A DNA stretch of 40,799 nt from a bacterium (GTDB lineage Bacteria > Fibrobacterota > Chitinivibrionia > Chitinivibrionales > Chitinivibrionaceae): contig JAIFMU010000082.1 in the NCBI GenBank assembly GCA_020048285.1, forward strand, positions 1 to 40,799, read 5' to 3'. The notes under the pieces are model-generated. The model was not told where the DNA came from. It ran no database searches and saw only the letters and a program-made list of their open reading frames with translations. Shown here in pieces: positions 34,914 to 37,333 of the stretch; the stretch's first letter is position 1, and the number at the start of each line of letters is the position of its first letter. Made by a program: the position numbers and the translations under genes.

Positions 34914-36961
34914 AAAAAGTAGTAGAAATGATGCTTCTGGCGTTCGTGATTGTGATGATAGGGTGCAATGCGCCTTCGGTGGCGGGAAAAGTGGATGAAA
35001 CAGATACGCAACTTCCAGGATTGATCTCGCCTGCGGGAATGCCCGTAGCCGGTGCGAAAGTAAAGCTGTTCAAGAGTCAGGACACCACCGGCACCGTGGT
35101 GGATTCTATGGTGACCGATGCCAATGGGAAATACTCTCTTGAAAAAATCCCCGATGGGGTCTACGCGATCTGGGCGGAAACGGACAGCCTCGTCTTTTTC
35201 AAAGATGAAATCGTGCTCACCGATTCGACCACCTACCGATCCACGGATACGCTGGAACAGCCGCGAACAATTCTCGTACCGGTCACGGTGGAACCGCAAC
35301 ACTCGCCGCAGATCATTATGGCGCAGATTCTCGGTACCAACGAATATCCGCTAGTGCAACCATCCTCGACGAATCGCTCCTATCTCGTGCTCGATCGCGT
35401 GCCCAACGGATCGTTTACGGTGCGACTTGCACCGGCAAATCCGAACAAGCACGAGTACACTCCGCGCAGTTGGCCCATTGCGATCAGCGACAATTCGCCT
35501 GACACGGTGGCAGAAGTGTGGCACATGGAGTACACCGGCATTCCTGTGGTGAAAGGTGTCGCCGCTCAGTTCGATACGCTCACCGGCATAGCCTCGGTTT
35601 CGTGGGAACCAACGCCCTTTTCGCTCTTTTCTCGCTATGAAATCTATCGCGACCTGATCAGTGCGCCATCGCTTTCGACTCAACCGATCGCTTCTACAAG
35701 CGAACCGCTCTACAACGATTCTCTGGTGGCAAACGGAGTTGTGCCGGGAACCTACATCTACCGAATAAAAATTCGCAACAGTGCCGGTGAAGTGGGTGTT
35801 CACCACTACGTCGATACGATTACCTATGTCGATCCCGCGGAAGAGTTGAACATTTTAAAATCTACGGCAGTAGGGGTGAACTTTCGCGAACGGGTGAAGA
35901 TTCCTCTCAACGTGAGCAGTTGGTTTGGGGAAACGCCGCAAGGAACAATTGCGATCAATGGCGGTGCGGCACAACCGTTGAGCTCCTTTGACACAGTGGC
36001 CATCTCTATAGATTCTCTTATTGGCGAATCAATTCCCGTGGTGGTAGCAATCAGTGGGGACAATCGCACGGTGGTTGATACCATTTTGCTCAATGTAACA
36101 CTGGCGTGGAACAAAATAGGAACAGTTCCCACCGCCGGAACCGCTCTTCAGCCACTGCGCGTAGGAGAGTCAATCTACCTTCCCGTGATTGCCGGAAATC
36201 GCTACTATCTCTACCGCAGTGATGATTCGTGTCGCCAGTGGAACCTCCTGTCCGACTCGGCGGTGGCAACGAGCCCGCTCTCTGCCGCTTCCAATCCTGT
36301 AGCGCAGGATGGGTGGCTCTGGATTGTCGATGGAGTGGGAAATCTCTGCAGTTCTCTCGATGGAACACTCTGGACGGTGAACAGTTCTGCCCCGGTGGAC
36401 CCGTTCTGGGAGGGGCTTACGGAAACGAAAATCCTTGCGTCGGTGAACGGAACTCTGGAACTGGCAATCGACAATAGCCATGACCGCACGTCCGGTGGAA
36501 CAGAACTGACCTTTTGGCGATACAATCGCACTGCCGGTGTGTTTGATTCTACGGGGAAACTGCGCGAGTATCTCAATCACTATTGGATCGAATCGGATGA
36601 AACGGGAGTATCCCTCTATACCTTTGATGAAAAAAGCTCCCGCCGGGCCATTGATCGCTACACTGTTTCCAACGGCGTAGTTCAGACTGGCACATTGAAT
36701 CAAAATAGTGAAGATCTCTCTTTTCGTTCGACCTCGTACCGCCACCTTTCTATGACCCGATTCTGTGGCAAACAGCTCTTTGTTGATGGGCGAGGTGCAA
36801 ACCAGTTCCTCGCCGTGAATATCGGACAACAGTGGAACCCTAATCTTATCGCCAAGGCCCATGCAGTGGGAACTGTTCCCACAACGCTCCCCGTTCAGTT
36901 GATCACCATGGGAAATACGCTCTGGATGGTCAATGCGGAAGGGGTATTTGCGGGGCAATGA
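34910..36961 (+). CDS. Lipoprotein with carboxypeptidase-regulatory-like and FN3-like domains
   Basis: 683 residues starting with a lipoprotein signal (FVIVMIGC, C19). Residues 35-110 are a carboxypeptidase-regulatory-like beta sandwich (AGMPVAGAKVKLFKSQ, then TDANGKYSLEKIPDGVYAIWA). Residues 220-300 are FN3-like (TGIASVSWEPTPFSLFSRYE, then PGTYIYRIKIRNSAGE). The C-terminal ~280 residues have strands with W and YLYRSDD/WNLLSDS patterns like propeller repeats. It is surface or periplasmic. It is translationally coupled to the TIGR02147 gene. Confidence 0.82.
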   Translation: MKKVVEMMLLAFVIVMIGCNAPSVAGKVDETDTQLPGLISPAGMPVAGAKVKLFKSQDTTGTVVDSMVTDANGKYSLEKIPDGVYAIWAETDSLVFFKDEIVLTDSTTYRSTDTLEQPRTILVPVTVEPQHSPQIIMAQILGTNEYPLVQPSSTNRSYLVLDRVPNGSFTVRLAPANPNKHEYTPRSWPIAISDNSPDTVAEVWHMEYTGIPVVKGVAAQFDTLTGIASVSWEPTPFSLFSRYEIYRDLISAPSLSTQPIASTSEPLYNDSLVANGVVPGTYIYRIKIRNSAGEVGVHHYVDTITYVDPAEELNILKSTAVGVNFRERVKIPLNVSSWFGETPQGTIAINGGAAQPLSSFDTVAISIDSLIGESIPVVVAISGDNRTVVDTILLNVTLAWNKIGTVPTAGTALQPLRVGESIYLPVIAGNRYYLYRSDDSCRQWNLLSDSAVATSPLSAASNPVAQDGWLWIVDGVGNLCSSLDGTLWTVNSSAPVDPFWEGLTETKILASVNGTLELAIDNSHDRTSGGTELTFWRYNRTAGVFDSTGKLREYLNHYWIESDETGVSLYTFDEKSSRRAIDRYTVSNGVVQTGTLNQNSEDLSFRSTSYRHLSMTRFCGKQLFVDGRGANQFLAVNIGQQWNPNLIAKAHAVGTVPTTLPVQLITMGNTLWMVNAEGVFAGQ

Positions 36962-37111
36962 ATGAGTCGGTTGCTTGGTGGGCTGGTTTTACAGAATTAC
37001 ATACCGCTGTGTCGCGGTAAGCTCCTTGTAGCAGTTGTGAACAGATAGAAGAGTGCGAAAAGAGTATGCAGGTATGACACAACAACGATTGCTCATAGGG
37101 GGCGGATAAAC
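36962..37111. other. Gene-free stretch with one hairpin
   Basis: Part of a 455-bp gap between the lipoprotein and DUF6261-like genes. I see no gene here. TACCGC (37002-37007) pairs perfectly with GCGGTA (37014-37019) over a 6-base loop containing CTGTGT if the last stem C is counted. This loop sequence also occurs in the REP-like hairpins downstream. Confidence 0.6.
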
Positions 37112-37150
37112 GAGACTGTGCAAGTATTTGCAATAAAACACAAAAATCGT

Positions 37151-37174
37151 AGATTCGGCCCTATGTGGCCGACT
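37151..37174 (+). repeat. REP-like unit A (GTAG head plus hairpin)
   Basis: GTAGAT is followed by stem TCGGCC, loop CTATGT and stem GGCCGA, 24 bases in all. The partner unit B is on the other strand at 37212-37235. This is the layout of REP elements: a GTAG tetranucleotide 5' of a hairpin. Confidence 0.75.
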
Positions 37175-37177
37175 GAA

Positions 37178-37200
37178 ATCAATGTAATCGGTTGATTTAA
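37178..37200. repeat. Hairpin between the REP-like units
   Basis: AAATCAA (37178-37184) pairs with TTGATTT (37194-37200) over a 9-base loop. With the outer CGTAGAT/ATCTACG pairing (37150-37156 with 37230-37236) the whole segment can fold as a three-armed cloverleaf. Confidence 0.6.
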
Positions 37201-37211
37201 TCTTTGAAAAG

Positions 37212-37235
37212 ATGCCCACACAGGGGCATATCTAC
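37212..37235 (-). repeat. REP-like unit B (inverted, GTAG head plus hairpin)
   Basis: Read on the minus strand: GTAGAT, stem ATGCCC, loop CTGTGT, stem GGGCAT. Same length, head and loop pattern as unit A, but the stem differs at several positions on both arms in a compensating way. Inverted pairs of this kind are called BIMEs in enterobacteria. Confidence 0.75.
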
Positions 37236-37309
37236 GGAAAATTTGAATTCTTGCACAGTCTCCCTGCCCCCCTCCGGCGTTACCGCCAAATGAGCGTTTA
37301 TCTCTGATC

Positions 37310-37333
37310 GTGGTAGACACATTGGTCTACCAC
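37310..37333. repeat. 9-bp perfect hairpin with 6-base loop
   Basis: GTGGTAGAC (37310-37318) pairs with GTCTACCAC (37325-37333). The loop reads CAATGT on the minus strand, close to the CTRTGT loops of the REP-like units. No T-run follows on either strand, so it is not a clear terminator. The rest of 37334-37416 shows nothing I can name. Confidence 0.75.

Follow-up and report, generated by a model that had tools for sequence, protein, structure and literature searches.

A GTAG REP hairpin pair within a MITE-like terminal inverted repeat unit in a genus of Fibrobacterota

How REP pairs spread is unsettled, because their RAYT-driven movement in cells is mostly inferred. The window analysed here, a stretch of 40,799 nucleotides from a bacterium of the Fibrobacterota, raises this question at a site between two convergent open reading frames (3' ends at 36961 and 37417), where two GTAG-headed hairpins face each other. 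Unit A (37149-37172, plus strand) consists of the head GTAGAT, the stem arms TCGGCC and GGCCGA and the loop CTATGT; unit B (37212-37235, minus strand) consists of GTAGAT, the arms ATGCCC and GGGCAT and the loop CTGTGT, and a central spacer (37173-37211) separates the two. Both match model R1 (see below), and both exist in the exact letters in which an earlier note on this DNA wrote them, each folding as drawn there; only the start given in that note, 37151, is two bases late, the true start being 37149. The DNA minimum free energies are -6.1 kcal/mol for unit A and -5.0 kcal/mol for unit B, and shuffled sequences folded equally well in 0 of 200 and 1 of 200 cases, respectively. The GTAG tetranucleotide lies immediately 5' of the hairpin in both units, and the units are inverted with GTAG outside, so placed that one long hairpin can form. 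The pair is thus an inverted head-head heterodimer of GTAG REPs, that is, a REPIN. Its stems are perfect helices of 6-7 bp, with no conserved mismatch bulge of the E. coli (group 2) REP/BIME type, and in this they are like the stem form of group 3 REPs (PMC8266576).

The hairpins are genuine members of a GTAG REP class, more than would be expected by chance. From an ungapped alignment (A1) of hairpins of the window loop class we built the covariance model R1, carrying out the genome search that the earlier note had proposed, and it matched 25 places in the window's own genome (G000) and 8 in the congener (G001) among 61 genomes; in the 59 other genomes of the phylum, two gave a marginal single match each. 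G000 comprises 3.4 Mb in 272 contigs and is about 70% complete, and its genome-wide counts come from contig searches and the stretches that were read. A small family, separate from the phylum's large and well-sampled one, contains the genus of G000 and G001. Over the 25 distinct sequences, 94.0% of the stem cells were paired, compared with 68.6% in shuffles, stem cells changed on both sides numbered 39 against 12.8 in shuffles, and the covariation score was 0.629, against 0.134 for shuffled and at most 0.083 for slid controls. Three of the six stem pairs hold nearly all of the variation, whereas the loop (C N R T G T), the C-G pairs next to it and the GTAG are almost invariant across the class. 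This pattern fits the known needs of group 3 RAYTs, which depend on the GTAG motif, on a stem without irregularities and on certain bases in the loop (PMC8266576).

The earlier note took the joint change of both stem arms as selection for structure. This is borne out between REP subfamilies, as the paired exchanges distinguish unit A of subtype 1a, unit B of subtype 1a and the units of subtype 1b, but it does not extend to the copies within a subfamily, in which most changes have no compensating partner (GGACAT and GGGAAT are examples). Selection for structure therefore belongs more to the history of the class than to the present copies, and in the copies borne by the larger unit described below the structure is probably not under strong selection at present. 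In addition, a strict REP pattern was found in nine stretches of named genomes, of which two were congener contigs and two belonged to other metagenome-assembled genomes, with one match in each of five Pseudoalteromonas genomes; searches of a plasmid collection and of Rfam gave no match.

Which RAYT do these REPs belong to? RAYT-like genes (NF047646) occur in 44 of the 61 genomes. The earlier note had made its GTAG REP reading depend on the presence of other GTAG hairpins with this loop and on their following RAYT genes; such hairpins do exist, but RAYTs are spread far more widely than the REP class, which is found in one genus. That note also linked the pair to the HUH transposase (RAYT) gene of the window, a link that has to be given up. 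The window RAYT (904-1464) is associated with another REP, the fully self-complementary GTAGAGACGTTGCATGCAACGTCTCTAC, copies of which lie at 835, 1225 and 1540, and a TAG ends the gene early, close to the C-terminus; as its REP differs from GTAGAT...CTRTGT... and the gene is truncated, it drops out as the partner. The GTAGAGACGTTGCATGCAACGTCTCTAC copy at 1225 lies inside the gene, in frame, and encodes VETLHATSL. The orthologue in G001 (on C183) reads through where the window has TAG; in both species the RAYT adjoins a dihydroorotate dehydrogenase gene in the same place and holds the in-frame GTAGAGACGTTGCATGCAACGTCTCTAC.

A better candidate lies on contig C244 of G000, where a RAYT gene of 171 amino acids has head-head REP pairs of the window loop class on both sides (GTAGACCAGACCCAATGTGGTCTGG or GTAGATTAGACCCGATGTGGTCTGG with GTAGGTCGGCCCCGATGTGGGCYGA), 54 and 74 bp from the gene. 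Its product carries an HUH-like PDHIH motif and a C-terminal YI-NNP motif and scores 50.5 of 80 bits, under the NCBI cut-off; a PDB sequence search gave no match, and a single-sequence AlphaFold model, with a mean pLDDT of 37, was set aside. The flanking pairs form a sister subtype (1b) and are not identical to the window subtype (1a). The C244 RAYT is the best candidate partner of the loop class, and it presumably acts on subtype 1a as well. Multiple copies, covarying stems with a kept GTAG and loop, and a RAYT with pairs of the loop class on either side together uphold the GTAG REP reading of the earlier note. Two further RAYT genes were noted in the congener. One (G001:C263, 1198-1854) scores above the NCBI cut-off, is flanked by non-GTAG hairpins (CTCGTGACCAGTCTCCGGCTGGTCACG) and is possibly TIR-associated; the other lies at a contig end (G001:C422:1-500) with three type-5-like REPs (GTAGGGGCACGGCGTGCCGTGCCC) upstream, and is the likely partner of the type-5 REPs, which also occur inside TIR units.

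The pair does not stand alone in the window. It is framed by an inverted repeat at 37112-37128 and 37246-37262, perfect over 13 bp and near-perfect over 17 bp, which the earlier note overlooked. The left terminal inverted repeat (TIR) is GAGACTGTGCAAGTATT (37112-37128, plus strand), a motif that occurs without mismatch 15 times in the congener and 6 times in the window's own genome; the right one, recognized by the TIR search and in the loci read, is GAGACTGTGCAAGAATT (37246-37262, minus strand). Between TIR and REP lie the spacers TGCAATAAAACACAAAAATC (37129-37148, plus strand) on the left and CAAATTTTCC, read on the minus strand (37236-37245), on the right. The whole forms a complete, REP-carrying, MITE-like unit of 151 bp (37112-37262, plus strand), across which the longest stop-to-stop frame is 77 codons. 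Outside the unit, GGGGGCGG (37098-37105, plus strand) and CTGCCCCC (37264-37271, plus strand) are the arms of a flanking palindrome with one G-T pair, a putative target-site palindrome that holds the unit; the joined flanks fold at -16.4 kcal/mol (RNA parameters).

By nucleotide search, full or nearly full copies of the unit were found on five other contigs of G000 (C264, C41, C78, C220 and C125) and halves of it on two (C97 and C134). The one congener searched holds full copies at 86% and 79% identity, and elsewhere another genus of the order gave one 33-base match to a TIR end, and the rest of the phylum three weak matches. When at most one mismatch is allowed, the TIR 17-mer GAGRYTGTGCAAGWATT was counted 7 times in G000 and 29 in G001, compared with 1 and 0 for a control reading; elsewhere in the order there are only scattered singles, at a rate similar to that of the control. 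Among 168 genomes of the phylum, an exact match is present only in G000 and G001, and the 166 others have none. The two halves each are interrupted by a palindromic element containing GAGCTTGTCGAAG...TTCGACAAGCTC; they lie near contig ends, with mirrored outer flanks.

The same TIR encloses different cores. In addition to the window pair (type 1), it holds GTAGCGGCAAATAATATTTGCC / GTAGGGGCGAATAACATTCGCCC (type 2), GTAGGGATGCCCCTTGTGGGTATCC / GTAGGGGCAGCCCTTGTGGCTGCCC (type 3), GTAGGGTGCGGACCAACGTGTCCGCCC / GTAGGGGTAGACCAACGTGTCTACCC (type 4) and GTAGGGACACGGCGTGCCGTGTCC / GTAGGGGCACGGTGAGCCGTGC (type 5), so that at least five GTAG pair types and one non-GTAG cargo share one TIR in two species of a single Fibrobacterota genus. 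That cargo is a 254-bp core without GTAG hairpins (G001:C316, C675 and C111), rich in CCCGAAGGG / CCCTTCGGG repeats. At 26 of 40 TIR ends a GTAG hairpin begins 27-46 nt from the outer end, whereas a random 75-nt stretch of the window would give about 2.7%. Within a type the TIR-GTAG spacers are conserved; between types, 7 of 40 comparisons reached p < 0.01 where 0.4 were expected; the left spacer of the window unit, for example, resembles the matching spacer of type-3 units (1A versus 3B, p 0.001). As the spacers are kept within and partly across types, several types probably have related frames around different hairpins. Counted from the outer end of the TIR, GTAG starts at 27-28, 36-40 or 46 nt, in steps of about one helical turn, which may be a spacing rule or merely shared descent.

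Evidence that the frame itself has moved comes from its edges. Just outside the TIRs, 7 of 14 complete units show exact direct repeats of 3-4 bp (AAA, TCT, TCC, TCCG, CAA, TGGA and AGAA); when the right flanks were shuffled, a mean of 0.78 units had such a repeat, and 7 was reached in 0 of 20,000 shuffles. Target-site duplication is therefore a feature of the family, although none is visible at the window copy. The complementarity of the joined flanks was 75, compared with 52.8 +/- 5.2 when shuffled, and several joined flanks form perfect palindromes centred on the duplicated bases, such as ATTACAGGTT-TGGA-AACCTGTAAC and TGTGACGAG-TTTCTAG-CTCGTCACA. Two type-4 units of G001 start inside the loop of a type-3-like REP body (CCCACAA^), and one of these lies within another TIR unit. 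No empty target palindrome matched the exact pattern CTCGTTCCAAG..CTTGGAACGAG, which is too strict. Taken together, duplications at the TIR edges and insertion at palindrome axes argue for movement of the whole TIR-bounded unit through a short-stagger cut. The mover is most likely a DDE transposase acting in trans.

We therefore consider it probable that the window pair is a GTAG REPIN carried as the core of a non-autonomous MITE of 150-165 bp that is moved TIR to TIR in trans, while the REP class is maintained by a RAYT. In this scheme the mobile unit would extend from one GAGRYTGTGCAAGWATT end to the other; a putative transposase supplied in trans would read the ends and insert the unit, duplicating 3-4 bp of the target and often using the axis of another palindrome, and one TIR frame would in this way have carried several REP pairs in the genus. 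We infer both the enzyme that reads the TIRs and this order of events. The class itself would be maintained by a RAYT, with the C244 gene and its two flanking pairs of the same loop class as the best candidate. If such a RAYT demands GTAG, an unvarying loop and a stem that pairs whatever its sequence, this would explain why the stem arms change together while head and loop are kept. It was probably the TIR unit that multiplied this REP subtype. Several observations count against this explanation. Chief among them, a search for DDE_Tnp_1 and DDE_Tnp_1_6 genes in the two assemblies, both fragmented, found no autonomous element with these TIRs: the DDE_Tnp_1 genes are without them and DDE_Tnp_1_6 is absent. 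The window copy and six other complete units are without an exact target duplication, the duplication length varies from 3 to 4 bp, at least one subtype-1a pair (C68) has no TIR, and the pairs next to the C244 RAYT belong to the sister subtype 1b.

A more far-reaching possibility is a dual mobility, in which the TIR frame, read by one transposase, would be a lasting carrier that repeatedly swaps its REP pair for those of other REP families, served by several RAYTs, with RAYT-type and TIR-type transposition cooperating and each inserting into the other's palindromes; we hold this to be possible but rather doubtful. Also unlikely, in our view, is a plain RAYT-moved REPIN, in which the REP pair alone is mobile and the outer GAGACTGTGCAAG palindrome merely offers a hairpin into which RAYTs preferentially insert different pairs. 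The several kinds of GTAG pair within the same palindrome would fit such a target, and REP dimers inside longer palindromes are known from Anabaena variabilis (GTAG-15) and Halothiobacillus neapolitanus (CGTC-1) (PMC3733652). A shorter subtype-1a pair without TIRs on C68 of G000 likewise speaks for it, and indicates that these REPs can also exist alone. However, the duplications lie at the outer TIR edge, which argues that the TIR-bounded unit inserts whole, the spacers next to the TIRs stay with the REP pair within types and partly across them, and no core-less TIR palindrome was present among the TIR ends read.

It is very improbable that the outer repeats are the ends of a RAYT-like 'TIRtron', with one HUH transposase moving the whole unit via single-stranded DNA, as HUH single-strand transposition of the IS200/IS605 kind makes no target duplication and GAGACTGTGCAAG flanks none of the RAYT genes read (GAGACTGTGCAAGWATT being the TIR end sequence). 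TIR-flanked RAYT genes are nonetheless known (PMC3733652), and the non-GTAG hairpins flanking the congener RAYT on C263 would suit this idea. Least credible of all is the view that the unit is a fixed regulatory element or terminator, retained because of the structure it forms as RNA or DNA, since the position between convergent genes and the strong fold of the 159-nt stretch round the pair (-32.5 kcal/mol versus -13.7 in shuffles, z -6.5) are outweighed by many dispersed copies in unrelated surroundings, target duplications, mostly uncompensated substitutions within subtypes and the lack of a terminator-like T run or an Rfam match.

With the MITE-borne REPIN as the preferred reading, the unit can be set beside known systems. 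GTAG REP head-head dimers and REPINs (Di Nocera et al. 2013, PMC3733652; Bertels and Rainey 2011, PMC3116915) likewise have GTAG 5' of the hairpin, inverted units with GTAG outside and different stems, are intergenic, and occur in genomes with a RAYT and its flanking pairs; in contrast to them, the window pair sits inside a TIR unit of a family with target duplications, one frame serves different pairs, and the class has a low copy number (25 hairpins). The A. variabilis and H. neapolitanus dimers also lie, as a rule, inside a longer palindrome whose sequence is fixed; however, one REP family per palindrome was described there (PMC3733652), whereas in the window genus five GTAG types and a non-GTAG cargo share the TIR, with target duplications outside it. 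ISPsy8, an insertion sequence that targets REPs and inserts at the palindrome axis with a 3-bp duplication, and IS1397 and other REP-inserting elements (PMC1525189) share insertion at the palindrome axis and, for ISPsy8, 3-bp direct repeats; unlike ISPsy8 and IS1397, the window unit has no transposase gene, its ends look unrelated and it itself carries REP pairs. With bacterial MITEs (RUP, NEMIS, Nezha and ERIC) it has in common a size of 70-300 bp, TIRs, target duplications and no coding capacity; it differs in that its core consists of RAYT-type REP hairpins and that no parent IS has yet been found. In the limited literature searched, there was no match for a TIR frame common to five REP pair types with target duplications, and such nesting of two kinds of mobile DNA, a REP pair in a MITE-like unit, is uncommon and little described.

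REP pairs riding in a conventional TIR unit would have a second route of dissemination, and the number of copies that a REP subtype reaches near RAYT genes is then not necessarily a measure of what the RAYT does. The genus offers a natural comparison within one loop class, between subtype 1a inside the TIR and subtype 1b outside it, beside a RAYT. Finally, a further hairpin, GTGGTAGACACATTGGTCTACCAC, lies in the window at 37310-37333, 48 bp to the right of the 151-bp unit, and resembles the type-4 REP body GTAGACCAACGTGTCTAC.
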